Shown piece after piece: positions 6,846 through 11,502 of a DNA stretch of 64,000 nucleotides. This DNA is from Paenibacillus sp. HGH0039. Lineage in GTDB: Bacteria > Bacillota > Bacilli > Paenibacillales > NBRC-103111. Each line of letters begins with the position of its first letter. The first letter of the stretch is position 1. The notes beneath the pieces were generated by a model. That model searched no databases. It was not told the origin of the DNA and saw only the letters and a program-made list of their open reading frames with translations. The position numbers and the translations under genes were made by a program. The stretch covers positions 1,156,999-1,220,998 of the forward strand of contig NZ_KE150413.1 in the NCBI RefSeq assembly GCF_000411255.1, in the 5' to 3' direction.

Positions 6846-6989
6846 TTAGTTGCTTATCTCTAATTTCTGCTGCAGTTTCTCCCAGGAGGATTCCAGCTGC
6901 AGCCGTGGTACTTCCACAGTTTCGAACTTTTCGATCAGCGTATCTTTGAGAAGATCTTCAAAAAAGTTATCGAATTGGTACTGGGTCAT
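6846..6989 (-). CDS. Small acidic hypothetical protein beside the com-like locus (47 aa)
   Basis: Short ORF on the - strand, absent from long-ORF calls, starting MTQYQFDNFFEDLL and ending KLEISN. TTAGGAGTG precedes the ATG at good spacing. The peptide looks helical and amphipathic, with a single Trp eleven residues from the end and no signal peptide. It sits downstream of the candidate ComX gene on the same strand but is separated from it by a strong terminator, so it needs its own promoter. It occupies a position reminiscent of degQ (46 aa) beside Bacillus comQ, but I see no sequence similarity. Function unknown. Confidence 0.6.
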   Translation of the reverse strand: MTQYQFDNFFEDLLKDTLIEKFETVEVPRLQLESSWEKLQQKLEISN

Positions 6990-7342
6990 AAATAACACTC
7001 CTAAGTTCTGGTCTATGGATAAAAATGTATACTTTTATATTATCTTTAAAACCTTACAGATTCAGCGCAATTTTGTTTCGCAAGGATGCAAAATAATTTT
7101 CACTGATGCGCAAGAAAGAAGGATAATAATGGAAAAAAACGCGTTCTGCTTTAAAGACGTACCCGGGATTGCATGTCTTAAAGTCGTATCCGGTAGTGCA
7201 AGCATCCCTGTTTCCTTGAACAAGTACGCAATCCGGCTTGCGCACATATGCAGTCTAGTGCATACGAACCATAAAAAAAGATTGCCTATCAGCTCACTGC
7301 TGATAGGCAATCTTTTTGTTTTTTGCTATGATGTGGATAGGT
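6990..7342. other. Intergenic region between the 47-aa gene and the ComX-like gene
   Basis: 353 bases, noticeably AT-rich in its first 100 bases. It holds the terminator at 7275-7317 and an imperfect 22-bp direct repeat at 7152-7173 and 7179-7200. A + strand ORF from 7131 has an acceptable SD (AAGGAT) but runs through the terminator stem, so I do not call it. Nothing else recognised. Confidence 0.6.
7275..7317 (-). terminator. Strong terminator of the ComX-like gene
   Basis: Perfect 18-bp stem (7275-7292 with 7300-7317), seven-base loop, flanked by A/T runs on both sides, so it can work in either direction. It lies 25 bases after the stop of the 55-aa precursor gene and makes that gene a single-gene transcript. 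Confidence 0.92.
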
Positions 7343-7510
7343 TTACCACATAATATATCTTACTTCTGGTTTTTCGCTTGCCAAAGCTTTCTGCAAGGAA
7401 TTCACTTCAATCTTTGTTAAAGATTCGGAGGATGCGGATGCGGATTTGGAACCAACTGCTTCTTTAACAGCTTGTTTCAGTTCGCGGGACCATAGTACTG
7501 CCGTTTGCAT
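7343..7510 (-). CDS. Candidate ComX-like pheromone precursor (55 aa, C-terminal Trp)
   Basis: A 55-codon ORF on the - strand, starting MQTAVLWSRELKQAV and ending KPEVRYIMW. GAGGTG lies eight bases before the ATG and an 18-bp-stem terminator follows the stop. ComX precursors are about 55 aa, lack a signal peptide, and carry near the C-terminus a Trp that ComQ prenylates; here Trp is the last residue, preceded by Tyr-Ile-Met. The divergent operon encodes ComP-, ComA- and ComQ-like proteins, the full set needed to mature and sense such a peptide. Differences: Bacillus comX lies between comQ and comP on the same strand, and its Trp is usually a few residues from the end. No homology to a specific ComX can be asserted from sequence alone. 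Confidence 0.68.
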   Translation of the reverse strand: MQTAVLWSRELKQAVKEAVGSKSASASSESLTKIEVNSLQKALASEKPEVRYIMW

Positions 7511-7528
7511 GACAGACACCTCGCTTTG

Positions 7529-7557
7529 TTCAGAATATATAACTTATTACCTATACT
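7529..7557 (+). promoter_or_regulatory. Probable promoter of the comP-like operon, overlapping the comX-like promoter
   Basis: TTCAGA (7529-7534), 17-base spacer, TATACT (7552-7557) reads as a vegetative promoter 35 bases before the kinase ATG. On the other strand TATATA at 7541-7536 could be the -10 of the ComX-like gene, though its -35 is poor. Only 81 bases separate the divergent start codons, so the two promoters must overlap or interfere. Confidence 0.5.
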
Positions 7558-7591
7558 ACAATAAAAACTGGAAATAGAAAAGGTGATTTTA

Positions 7592-9919
7592 ATGAATTAC
7601 AAAAAGAAATGGGTCATCTTGCTTTTATTAGTAATCGTTTTCCTGCAGGTTTCTTTTTTTAAAGTAGCCTACCGATACCCGTATTTAGGAATACTGGCGG
7701 AACAGAATGCAGTGGGACAGTGGTACATAGCAGGATTAGAGAAGATAAGCATCGGCGATAAGGTTGGTTTTAAAACAAACGATATTGTAATTTCCATTGA
7801 CGGTAAAGATCCGTCGGAACATGCGACTGTACAAAAGTATCACAGTATAGAGCAAGCGGACAAAATCACTATTCAAAGAGACGGCCAAACCTTGGAGTTT
7901 TCCTTGAAAGAATACTCCACGTCGATGACGATTGATATTCTTTCATTGATCGGAGAAATCTTTGCTTTTTTGTTTGCTTATTTCTTATATACTCGAATAG
8001 CAAATTCAGTATCGGCTTCCATGCTTTCCGTAGTATTTGCAAATATTGCGCTGATCTTCATGGCCATAGGCGCCTCGACACGGGCGGACATTCTGGCTAA
8101 AGGAGTGACTATGACCCTGGTCGCTGCCCTCCCTTTTGTGTTTCTTCACTTTCTTATTATGTTCTTTAAAGAGAGATCAAGCTTCAGCTTGCCGACCTAT
8201 TTTATGAAATATGTTTACGTAGGACTGATTATTTTTACCGGGATACAGGCAGTCATGTTTCTGCCCTCTGCCGAATTTGAATTTTATTCGGAAGTTTATT
8301 ACGGAACCATTTTTATTTTCATCCTGGGATTTACACTGAATCTCGCGCTGCTGGCTTACTTATACATTAAGTACCGAAAAACGAATGATTATTTGTTTAC
8401 AGTGATTAGGACAGTTGTAATTGCTCTCATCTGTTCATTTTTTCCACTGGTATTTCTTACTTTCCTGCCAAGGCTAATTCTTAAACAAGAGCTCGCGTTT
8501 TCATATTACAGCGGGTGGTTTGTGATGATCTTTCCGGTTGTTTTCGGTTATTTGATGATGTCCAAGCAGCTCTACGATCTGGATATTCTTATAAGAAGGG
8601 TCTACTACACCGCTTTTATTTCCACTCTGCCCAGCGGAGTATTGGTAATTGTCAATTACTTCATCTTTCAGAAGGATGCAAGTCTCAAGCATTTGGTCAT
8701 CAGCTTCTTGACGACTTTAATCGTGCTTACTTTCGTCACCTATTCTCTCGAATACTTCGCCACCAGGCTCGAGAAGATTATGTTTCCCAGGAAATATTAC
8801 CTGCAGCAGGCGCTGAAAAAGATCGCGAGCGATCTTGGCGGAATTACAAACTTTCGTGAGTTGAGAGACATTGTCCTGGTTGATATTGTGGATACCTTGC
8901 AGGTGCTCGGGGGAGCGATCGTGATCCAATACGCGGATGGAAATCTGGAAATTATCAGCGAGGGCAGCATTGACGAGAAGGAAGTGCGACGCCGGATTGT
9001 GGGGAACGACTGGTTTGATTCTGATTATACGCGAACGCTCATCAAGGGGCATGAAGAGTATATCTCTTTTCTGGTCATGACCAAGAAAAAAACGAATACG
9101 TTCATGAACCGGGAAGAGAGCGAATGGCTGAGCCTCATTATCTCGTATTTGTCCGTCAGCCTAGAAAACCTGTATCTGATCCGCAAGCTGAACATGAAGC
9201 TCCTGGAGCTGGCCTCGGAGCTTCCCAACCAGGAAGGCAGCGAAGAATACGTCTGGTTCCGCAAGACCATGTTCGATCTGCAGGAAAAAGAACGGACGCG
9301 GATCGCGACCGATTTGCACGATACGACTATGCAGGATATTTTCTTCGTTCAACGGAAATTAAAAAATCTTCAGAAACAGCTGCTTAATCCCGATGAGCAC
9401 CGGCAGCTTAAAGATATTTTGAACCATCTGGAACTGATCAATATGAATTTGCGGCAGTGCTGCTTCGAACTGAATCCTTATCTGCTTAAAAATATCGGGC
9501 TTGTCCGGGCCCTGCAGAACCTCGTGGATACCGAATCGAGTCTCGGCGATTACGAAATTCAGTTCGTGACGGAAGGAAAGACGACGGCGATGGAGAATCT
9601 CGATTATGAGGCGAAACGCCATATTTTCCGAGTCATTCAGGAATTGATTACAAATGCGAAGAAACATTCGCAGGCCAGCCGGCTTTTCATCCGGCTTGTC
9701 GCAAGCGGAAGCGAGGTTAGCATTCGCTATGAGGACGATGGTATCGGGTTTAGACCGAATTCGTCGTCAGGCAAGACAGTCGGCCGTTCCGGTATGGGCC
9801 TGGAGCAGATGAAAGGCCGGGTCTTGCATTTAAACGGGCAGTTCACAATGGAGTCCATGACGGGTAAAGGCGTTGAAGTCAGAATTCAGATCCCTATAAA
9901 GGAAGGCATACCGACATGA
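7592..9919 (+). CDS. comP: ComP-like pheromone-sensing histidine kinase
   Basis: 775 aa from the ATG at 7592 (AGGTG six bases upstream). Layout as in B. subtilis ComP: TM helix ~7-25, an extracytoplasmic PDZ-like segment (KTNDIVISIDGKDP, ~60-75), then a multi-helix membrane block to ~residue 395. A GAF-like linker follows, then a HisKA_3 dimerisation domain with EKERTRIATDLHDTTMQD (phospho-acceptor H576) and a HATPase domain (VIQELITNAKKHSQ; EDDGIGF; GMGLEQM). Several stretches line up with remembered ComP wording, such as RYEDDGIGF versus HYEDDGVGF. It should sense the modified peptide and phosphorylate the ComA-like regulator, whose gene overlaps its stop (ATGA). The first ~1.2 kb is clearly more AT-rich than the rest. 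Confidence 0.85.
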   Translation: MNYKKKWVILLLLVIVFLQVSFFKVAYRYPYLGILAEQNAVGQWYIAGLEKISIGDKVGFKTNDIVISIDGKDPSEHATVQKYHSIEQADKITIQRDGQTLEFSLKEYSTSMTIDILSLIGEIFAFLFAYFLYTRIANSVSASMLSVVFANIALIFMAIGASTRADILAKGVTMTLVAALPFVFLHFLIMFFKERSSFSLPTYFMKYVYVGLIIFTGIQAVMFLPSAEFEFYSEVYYGTIFIFILGFTLNLALLAYLYIKYRKTNDYLFTVIRTVVIALICSFFPLVFLTFLPRLILKQELAFSYYSGWFVMIFPVVFGYLMMSKQLYDLDILIRRVYYTAFISTLPSGVLVIVNYFIFQKDASLKHLVISFLTTLIVLTFVTYSLEYFATRLEKIMFPRKYYLQQALKKIASDLGGITNFRELRDIVLVDIVDTLQVLGGAIVIQYADGNLEIISEGSIDEKEVRRRIVGNDWFDSDYTRTLIKGHEEYISFLVMTKKKTNTFMNREESEWLSLIISYLSVSLENLYLIRKLNMKLLELASELPNQEGSEEYVWFRKTMFDLQEKERTRIATDLHDTTMQDIFFVQRKLKNLQKQLLNPDEHRQLKDILNHLELINMNLRQCCFELNPYLLKNIGLVRALQNLVDTESSLGDYEIQFVTEGKTTAMENLDYEAKRHIFRVIQELITNAKKHSQASRLFIRLVASGSEVSIRYEDDGIGFRPNSSSGKTVGRSGMGLEQMKGRVLHLNGQFTMESMTGKGVEVRIQIPIKEGIPT

Positions 9920-10539
9920 ACAAAATACAACATATCCTAATAGTTGATGACCATCCCGCCATGGCTTACGGCACGAAGTTTATTCTGGAGCAGGAGGAGA
10001 ATATTCAAGTGGTCGGCGTCGCGACGACGGGGGAAATGGGCGTCGAAATGATGGTGCAGTTGAATCCTTCCATCATTTTTCTCGATTTTCACCTTCCGGA
10101 TTTAACGGGCATGGAAGTTGCCGTCAAGATGAAGGAATTGAATAAGGACGTTCAGATCGTGATTTTTACGGGCATTGATTATATGCCGATTCTGAACAAC
10201 CTTCTGGAGCTCGGCGTTTGCGGCATCATGTCCAAAGACTCGAGCGAGGATCAGATCCGCAACATGATGAGGGCCTTGAAGGAAGGCCAGTCCGTCATTC
10301 CGATCTCCCTCCTGCATCAGATGAGGCTCAGCCACCCGGATGATGATTTGTCGAGCTTGACCGACGAGGAAATCAACATCATGAATCAGATCGTCAAAGG
10401 CGCCACCAATGAGCAGATTGCCGATGAGATTCATATGAGCAAGCGATCGGTGGACAACTACGTGCGCAAGATCTACGACAAGTTCGGGGTGAAATCCCGG
10501 GCTCAGGCTATCGAGAAGTTTTTACAAATCAAGCGTTGA
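9916..10539 (+). CDS. comA: ComA-like response regulator (NarL/LuxR type)
   Basis: 207 aa: a receiver domain with acidic D11/D12, phospho-acceptor D57 (IIFLDFHLP) and K at ~107, then a LuxR-type HTH (LTDEEINIMNQIVKGATNEQIADEIHMSKRS, ~145-190). The opening ILIVDDHPAMAYGTKFILE closely resembles ComA. In the Bacillus system phosphorylated ComA activates srfA, degQ and others; no target operon is recognisable here. ATGA overlap with the kinase gene indicates translational coupling. Confidence 0.85.
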   Translation: MNKIQHILIVDDHPAMAYGTKFILEQEENIQVVGVATTGEMGVEMMVQLNPSIIFLDFHLPDLTGMEVAVKMKELNKDVQIVIFTGIDYMPILNNLLELGVCGIMSKDSSEDQIRNMMRALKEGQSVIPISLLHQMRLSHPDDDLSSLTDEEINIMNQIVKGATNEQIADEIHMSKRSVDNYVRKIYDKFGVKSRAQAIEKFLQIKR

Positions 10540-10563
10540 CCAATCCCGAAAAGGCGGTGCAGC

Positions 10564-11502
10564 ATGAAGGCTGAAGTTTGGAGCGATATTCAGAATCTCA
10601 TTGAAACTTATTTTACCGTACCTTCCTTGAAAGAACTGCTGTTGAAAAGCGTGGCGGACAAGAAAGAAGAGCACTCCATCTGGGGAGAGCTCACCTGGAG
10701 TGTTCACGATCTGCTGGGCGGAAGCAATCCGGCCATTCACCGGGCCGCCGCATTGACCGAGCTTATGCTGCTTGCGCTGGATATTATGGACGATATCCAG
10801 GATCAGGACAATACGGAGAAGCCGTGGATGACCGTGCCCCAGGAGCAGGCGCTGAACGTATACACGGGACTCGTGACGGCGTCCGTCTCCGAATTGGGAG
10901 CCCTCCGACGCCAATACCCGGCCTCTCCTCTGCCCGATCCCGCCAAAGTATGCGAATTCATTACGGAGGCGATTAACGGACAGCATCTGGATGTGACGAA
11001 TGCCGTGCAGACGGAAGAAGACTACGTGGGAATGGTTCAGCGTAAATCCGGTACGCTCGTTCAGCTGGCTTTGTATATGGGCTACGCCTGCACGGATGCG
11101 AACGCCGATGAAGATACCGTAGGCAAGCTGAATCGTCTGGCCGTCTATATGGGACTGATGGCTCAGCTCGACAACGATTTGAGCGATCTGCTCCGTTTCG
11201 ATTACAAGAACGATCTCGTTCAGAAAAAGAAAACCATCCCGGTCCTGTTTCTTCTGGACGAGGAAGATGCGGAATTCCCGGTTATCCAGCAGTATTACAA
11301 CGGTGAAATCGACCAGCCCCAATTTTTAAAACATAAGCCGCAATGCGTCCAGTATGTCGTGGACTCCGGCTGTATCGAATACACGCGCACGATTCAGAAC
11401 TTGTATCTGCACCATGCGGACGAGCTGTTTGCCGAAATTCCGGCCGCTTCCGCGAATAAAGAGGCTTTCCGGGAGATCGCACTGGCCCGTTTCGAGCTGT
11501 AA
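10564..11502 (+). CDS. comQ: ComQ-like polyprenyl transferase
   Basis: 312 aa of the isoprenyl diphosphate synthase fold. First Asp-rich motif DIMDDIQDQD near residues 78-87 and second Asp motif LDNDLSDLL near 203-211, the pattern used by ComQ to bind a prenyl diphosphate for Trp prenylation. SD AAGGCGG precedes the ATG, 24 bases after the ComA-like stop, so it is the third gene of the operon. Bacillus comQ comes first in the operon, so the order is permuted here. A true trans-prenyl synthase for isoprenoid or quinone biosynthesis is the alternative, but the neighbours argue strongly for pheromone modification. Confidence 0.82.
   Translation: MKAEVWSDIQNLIETYFTVPSLKELLLKSVADKKEEHSIWGELTWSVHDLLGGSNPAIHRAAALTELMLLALDIMDDIQDQDNTEKPWMTVPQEQALNVYTGLVTASVSELGALRRQYPASPLPDPAKVCEFITEAINGQHLDVTNAVQTEEDYVGMVQRKSGTLVQLALYMGYACTDANADEDTVGKLNRLAVYMGLMAQLDNDLSDLLRFDYKNDLVQKKKTIPVLFLLDEEDAEFPVIQQYYNGEIDQPQFLKHKPQCVQYVVDSGCIEYTRTIQNLYLHHADELFAEIPAASANKEAFREIALARFEL

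Follow-up and report, generated by a model that had tools for sequence, protein, structure and literature searches.

A putative ComQXPA-like pheromone locus of permuted layout in Paenibacillus, with coupled variation of signal and receptor

Paenibacillus sp. HGH0039 is a soil bacterium related to Paenibacillus chitinolyticus, with a genome of 6.36 Mb (labelled G000); a stretch of 64,000 nucleotides of it, here called the window, was analysed. A first-pass annotation had described four open reading frames, for a ComP-like kinase, a ComA-like regulator, a prenyltransferase and a 55-aa product ending in Trp, and had arranged them as comX<->comP-comA-comQ. All four are present as noted (Table 1): comP, comA and comQ follow one another on the plus strand, and comX lies divergently upstream of comP, 81 bp separating it on the minus strand from the comP ATG. 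The layout had also been read correctly, and it is conserved in dozens of genomes. The proposed extent of 6846-11502 was too wide, since the locus proper starts near 7275, at a hairpin, and the frame at 6846-6998 is a separate conserved gene.

Table 1. Features of the com locus, in positions of the window.
Feature	Position	Strand	Basis
comX-like precursor, 55 aa	7343..7510	-	ORF call, family alignment, Ka/Ks, control regions
comP-like sensor histidine kinase, 775 aa, ATG at 7592	7592..9919	+	domain matches, profile alignment
PDZ-like sensor segment of ComP, residues 27-112	7670..7927	+	profile alignment, model pLDDT 92, PMC9620489
comA-like NarL-type response regulator, 207 aa, 4-bp overlap with comP	9916..10539	+	ORF call, domain match
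comQ-like tryptophan prenyltransferase (putative), 312 aa, motifs DIMDDIQD and QLDNDLSD	10564..11502	+	Pfam, tree, motifs
divergent intergenic region common to comX and comP	7511..7591	.	genus-wide conservation, promoter-like sites
terminator-like hairpin, 19-pair stem, T-rich tail on both strands	7275..7317	.	3' of comX
type-specific block: comX and sensor/linker part of comP	7356..9155	.	DNA identity to P. chitinolyticus

One flank of the locus holds ytpI and an SpxR-like gene; the other holds ytrI, ytrH, two aminotransferase genes and a DNA polymerase III alpha gene. The first-pass annotation had placed the locus where B. subtilis has nrnA, which may be so: the window genome has two frames of the DHH family, 337-338 aa long, at other sites. 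They would fit an nrnA that has moved, but relatives without com genes at the ytpI-ytrI site were outside the comparison. At the same site in three loci (L037 in genome G018, L040 in G033 and L055 in G017), comQ stands alone: comXPA is missing there and comP genes are found elsewhere in the genome. The separate gene ahead of ytpI is a frame of 47 aa (6855-6998, minus strand, ATG at 6998) that is identical in two sister species and 74% identical in two more, with relatives at other ytpI sites. Its Trp, 11 residues before the end, made it a candidate ComX. This was rejected: the frame is identical between species whose ComX differs, it is not beside comP, and one relative lies at a site that has comQ but lacks comXPA.

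How widespread is the arrangement? Among 80 named loci from Paenibacillus, Cohnella and Chengkuizengella, 66 have a divergent Trp-ended frame beside comP together with comQ, in the order X<- P A Q in 59 and X<- P Q in seven. The median gap between comX and comP is 72 bp, and the 4-bp overlap of comP and comA recurs in 52 of 62 loci. When a profile of the precursor was used for searching, a Trp-ended divergent frame was found at 61 of 68 comP upstream regions, as against one of 249 control regions, and the sole control match proved to be the true comX of a split comP. The profile was built from 15 precursors, to which some of the 68 contributed; recall is thus somewhat flattered, the control rate not. 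Judged by gene order and recurrence, a ComQXPA-like system is real and conserved in these three genera. A locus of Paenibacillus sp. Soil522 (L153) combines a precursor of the window type, with a WSPQL leader, with the order comQ-comX-comP-comA; it is possibly a reversal or an intermediate.

The window precursor reads MQTAVLWSRELKQAVKEAVGSKSASASSESLTKIEVNSLQKALASEKPEVRYIMW and is served by the ribosome site GAGGTG. A leader of about residues 1-20 is followed by a variable C-terminal tail ending in RYIMW, and it is from this tail that the signal peptide is predicted to come. Members of the precursor family, found in many genera, are frames of 50-71 aa that lie divergently upstream of comP. They share the leader M-x-x-x-x-W-S-P-x-L-x-x-x-V, the middle motif L-S-x-x-E-x-x-A-L-x-x-x-F and a Trp that is last or next to last (final in 17 of 69 precursors, next to last in 51). 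The ComX hallmark of a Trp within the last ~10 residues of a short precursor (~50-75 aa) is present in the window, where it is the final residue. That the 55-aa frame is a real gene, as first supposed, is supported by the recurrence of the arrangement and by purifying selection on the leader (Ka 0.022 and Ks 0.349 between species). The Pfam ComX family (PF05952) does not match the window frame, and among relatives' precursors it matches only one of 24 (E 0.0025), compared with all 14 canonical precursors. Aligned by hhalign, the precursor profile and canonical ComX show weak similarity, with 80.6% probability and in the C-terminal half only.

The ComP-like kinase consists of a PDZ-like outer segment, a membrane block, a linker, HisKA_3 (2.6e-6) and HATPase_c (2e-13); the PDZ_2 match (0.0023) is below Pfam's cut-off. 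It has the multi-helix N-terminal membrane block and large outer loop that precede HisKA_3 and HATPase_c in ComP. The suggestion that it also has the ComP sensor region is supported by its end-to-end alignment with ComP of canonical loci, the PDZ-like segment included. In profile comparisons with canonical ComPs, E ranges from 4e-69 to 4e-28 over the sensor half (residues 1-400) and from 1e-24 to 2e-8 for the outer PDZ-like segment alone. This segment was modelled by itself, because a fold search with the whole of ComP is dominated by the kinase domains. The model is confident and has the PDZ-bearing protease CtpB as its best PDB match, consistent with a PDZ-like sensor, and B. amyloliquefaciens ComP is likewise reported to resemble CtpB (PMC9620489). 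PDZ binding to a free C-terminus would suit a signal with Trp as its last residue; such binding is inferred. A ComA-type NarL/LuxR response regulator adjoins comP, and the window genome has only one close copy of it.

In Chengkuizengella, extra ComP-like kinases with a kinase core divergent from the ComP profile are found upstream of comP (L060:90-2384, L052:210-2462 and L062:8972-11206). The idea that ComP paralogues of this genus, which match mainly residues 3-533, carry a swapped output domain was rejected, as HisKA_3 and HATPase_c are present.

The ComQ-like protein matches Pfam polyprenyl_synt (1.2e-14), and a search of 60 related genomes gave a ComQ-like set at E <1e-40 against housekeeping synthases near 1e-6. 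Its identity to ComQ of the strains closest at this locus is 99% in P. chitinolyticus NBRC 15660 (G003), 98% in Paenibacillus sp. UNC499MF (G002), 78% in P. lutrae (G001) and 76% in Paenibacillus sp. FJAT-26967 (G004), and it is 19-23% to the sampled housekeeping synthases. These synthases split off at 100/100 in a maximum-likelihood tree of 60 sequences, which bears out the earlier preference for ComQ over a housekeeping prenyl synthase. In the same tree, 34 window-type enzymes form one clade (100/99) nested within ComQ, and the ComQs around this clade come from loci with a Pfam ComX gene, mostly ordered comQ-comX-comP-comA. The final tree omits a synthase row for which the wrong ORF had been chosen (L188) and a long-branch row (L186). 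Both Asp motifs had been reported for the enzyme. The first stands; the second is degenerate, with Asn in place of the first Asp, which is the ComQ pattern. QxxND is found at this position in nearly all enzymes of the permuted clade and in the listed canonical ComQs, as opposed to QxxDDxLD in the sampled synthases. DDxxD at both motifs and grouping with housekeeping synthases are not met by the window enzyme. By tree and motif, it is placed inside the ComQ family and apart from housekeeping synthases.

The nearest canonical neighbour of the permuted clade, its sister at 88/88, is locus L175, where comX is reversed between comQ and comP. This position suggests that the inversion of comX preceded the relocation of comQ, which is not proven. 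A distant ComQ-like match (26.5%) occurs on two plasmids labelled Stenotrophomonas rhizophila (CP065518.1 and CP031730.1); the two records are of nearly equal length and are possibly Gram-positive contamination.

Which parts of the locus vary between species? In DNA, the window is 91-98% identical to P. chitinolyticus across comQ, comA and the 3' part of comP, and about as close along most of the flanks; identity drops to 55-66% in the sensor region of comP and 77-78% at comX (55-82% over the block). The window ComP sensor is 51-61% identical to that of the sister species P. chitinolyticus and 70-78% identical to that of the more distant P. lutrae; the tail RYIMW is common to the window and P. 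lutrae, while P. chitinolyticus has RYMMW. In the P. tyrfis group, P. ehimensis and P. tyrfis MSt1 have the same tail, DPLSKWD, and sensors 98% identical; P. tyrfis YSS-72.2.G2 and P. elgii both have QPLSGWE, and their sensors are 100% identical. Sensors fall to 65-82% in pairs with different tails. ComA (94-100%) and ComQ (93-98%) stay close in every pair of this group, independently of the tail.

In partial Mantel tests of the precursor core on the sensor, given the kinase, r was 0.83-0.89 in four groups, one of which had r 0.85 and p 0.0016. The p values were 0.0016 and 0.017 in groups of seven genomes and 0.067 in groups of five. No significant relation of the core to ComQ was found in the four groups. 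Two of the groups have only five genomes each, most comparisons rest on one genome per species, and linked inheritance alone adds to the correlation, as comX adjoins the sensor end of comP. In these alignments, the ComX tail and the ComP sensor are seen to change together and to be shared across species, while ComA and ComQ are constant.

Such a pattern might in principle be hitch-hiking only, with a recombination hotspot replacing comX and the 5' half of comP jointly and no ligand-receptor specificity involved. The adjacency of comX and the 5' end of comP, which a single tract spans, allows for this, as do the two Mantel groups that are too small for firm p values. However, four species groups and a second locus all show the boundary at the sensor portion of comP, sensors are 50-82% identical compared with 90-100% for the rest, and types cross species as they do in balanced pherotypes. 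Hitch-hiking alone is therefore considered unlikely. Under the preferred reading, the exchange of matched signals and receptors, the layout itself is of consequence: because comX adjoins the 5' end of comP, a single recombination tract can replace signal and receptor together and spare comA and comQ. In the permuted layout, comQ is at the far end, outside the exchanged tract.

A second ComP (G000:C1:2617570-2619903, corresponding to L201:6568-8910, minus strand) is found in the window genome. It has 780 aa, is 43% identical to the first and has its own divergent ComX-like frame of 51 aa with the tail IYKLAWC. No comA or comQ is present near this locus, whose neighbours are a recQ-like helicase gene and a 99-aa frame resembling pterin dehydratase, and the genome has only one close copy of ComQ. 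At the second locus, the window genome and P. chitinolyticus are of the same type (sensor 97%), and UNC499MF differs (kinase 95%, sensor 50%, tail VRYFWY); at the first locus, it is the window genome that differs in type from the other two. Thus, the type differences fall in different genomes at the two loci, which indicates that the cassettes switched type independently. In related genomes, 24 of 41 comPs away from comQ have a divergent ComX-like frame. The other 17 yielded none, and some of them may respond to a different stimulus.

Three things escaped the first-pass annotation: that comX and the sensor vary together, that the genome has another comX-comP cassette, and that there is only one ComQ. 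Since a cassette of this kind also stands by itself at another site in the genome, several channels are probably served by one ComQ, and perhaps by one ComA; sharing of ComQ in trans is the simplest reading and has not been shown. A wider proposal, to which the evidence leans only slightly, is that Paenibacillales have a modular network in which one prenyltransferase, often with one ComA, would serve several independently exchanged comX-comP cassettes, so that the type of a strain would be its combination of channels.

Some genomes are richer still in these genes. Locus L245 (G017:C34:371300-390000) has four comP-like genes within ~13 kb, two of them adjacent, and two comA-like genes; several further ComPs and five ComQs are found in the same genome. 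Genome G029 has four separate comX-comP cassettes (L250-L253) whose tails differ and which have no adjacent comQ, and its comP next to comQ appears truncated (L059).

What might the locus do? The precursor encoded by the comX-like gene would be recognised by ComQ through its conserved leader, and ComQ would attach a prenyl group to the C-terminal Trp. The short tail, freed by an unidentified protease, would be exported as a lipopeptide, and the sensor half of ComP, with its PDZ-like segment and membrane part, would bind it on the outside of the cell. The kinase would then phosphorylate ComA, and ComA would regulate genes that are as yet unidentified. Leader recognition, prenylation, processing, binding, phosphotransfer and targets are all inferences, in the absence of data on chemistry, expression, secretion or phenotype. 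The observations beneath them are the conserved gene order, the placement in the ComQ family, the ComP-type sensor and the coupled variation of tail and sensor. The locus had been called a full pheromone system. Layout, ComQ placement and ComP sensor support this, and prenylation, activity and targets are unproven; with that reservation, a ComQXPA-like locus for a Trp-prenylated pheromone, permuted in layout and built of exchangeable signal-receptor cassettes, is held to be a highly probable reading.

Could the peptide instead be chiefly a secreted bioactive compound, for example an antimicrobial, with the kinase as a self-sensor that tunes its production? In P. alvei, the gene for the prenyltransferase PalQ lies with those for a histidine kinase and a precursor, and the enzyme prenylates a C-terminal Trp in vitro (PMC10853753), and the window likewise pairs a Trp prenyltransferase homologue with a kinase and a Trp-ended precursor. 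However, no NHLP-type leader family was matched by the window precursor in the family search, and the adjacent genes examined include none for transport, immunity or further modification. Many cassettes are made up of just comX and comP, and it is typical of pheromone specificity that tail and sensor are swapped as a matched pair between species. A RiPP cluster of the PalQ type is thus very unlikely. Hardly tenable at all is the view that the 55-aa frame is fortuitous and that a common prenyl diphosphate synthase happens to adjoin a two-component system with which it has nothing to do. The polyprenyl_synt match speaks for this view; against it, the tree and the ComQ-type motif set the enzyme apart from housekeeping synthases, other and stronger polyprenyl synthase matches exist in the window genome, and the frame is conserved, shows selection and occurs far more often than in the control regions.

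A prenylated-Trp pheromone locus in these genera would matter for several reasons. Quorum sensing by prenylated Trp is known mainly from Bacillus, and here its genes are rearranged and conserved in dozens of genomes, in a group about whose quorum sensing little is understood; for P. polymyxa, two papers report no comQXPA genes (PMC4209062, PMC6052121). The separation of the enzyme from the type-specific signal-receptor block offers a natural test of the role of ComQ in signal specificity, and the data predict that ComQ recognises the leader regardless of the tail. If the extra comX-comP cassettes are indeed served by one ComQ, they would amount to multi-channel communication with a shared modifying enzyme.

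How does the locus compare with known systems? PalP-PalX-PalQ of P. alvei resembles it in having a histidine kinase, a Trp-ended precursor and a trans-IDS-like prenyltransferase in a Paenibacillus (PMC10853753). It differs in the NHLP leader of PalX and in the lack of a response regulator among its three described genes. The SARM position is Asp in PalQ (D200) and mostly Asn in the window clade, and PalQ needs Trp at the very C-terminus, whereas the 51 window-type precursors noted above carry one more residue. A search with the core peptide DNVRRFFW did not find PalX/PalQ in 104, 395 and 396 genomes (overlapping sets), and PalQ is absent from the ComQ tree for want of a match.

A ComQXPA relative outside the Bacillus group was indeed found, but the interest ascribed to it was overstated, as loci beyond the B. 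subtilis group, one of them in a Paenibacillus, had already been reported. Dogsa et al. 2014 described unusual com-like loci in B. cereus VD102 and others, Lysinibacillus fusiformis and Paenibacillus curdlanolyticus (PMC4008528). Like the window, these have a hypothetical comX whose product carries a C-terminal Trp and does not resemble known ComX; in the first group this gene is on the opposite strand. Their comX lies between comQ and comP, in contrast to the window, where comQ follows comA; L175, with its reversed comX between comQ and comP, may resemble an intermediate. The layout comX<->comP-comA-comQ, cassette duplication and the decoupling of comQ were not found described in the open-access literature (subscription papers were outside the search).

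The closest parallel is ComQXPA of B. subtilis and its relatives (PMC4008528), which has the same four kinds of protein, one ComQ family, a short Trp-bearing precursor, a ComP with a PDZ-like segment and multi-helix membrane block, and comX and comP sensor that co-vary by type. Window-type loci differ in their divergent comX upstream of comP, in having comQ last, in a W-S-P-x-L leader that PF05952 does not match, in a Trp that nearly all precursors carry at the final or penultimate position, and in additional comX-comP cassettes that lack comQ. The comQ gene of B. subtilis is strongly polymorphic, its nucleotide identity between clusters being 65-70% (PMC4408185), and it varies together with comX and the 5' half of comP; in window-type loci, comQ stays outside the variable block (ComQ 93-98% across the P. 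tyrfis group types). The single-strand order comQ-comX-comP-comA is absent from the window and is present at loci elsewhere in the same taxonomic order and class. Since this order and the Pfam ComX match are lacking and comQ is outside the polymorphic block, the locus is, on its gene content and layout, a ComQXPA-like variant and not a canonical member. Otherwise, every feature that sequence can show points to a ComQXPA-like working.
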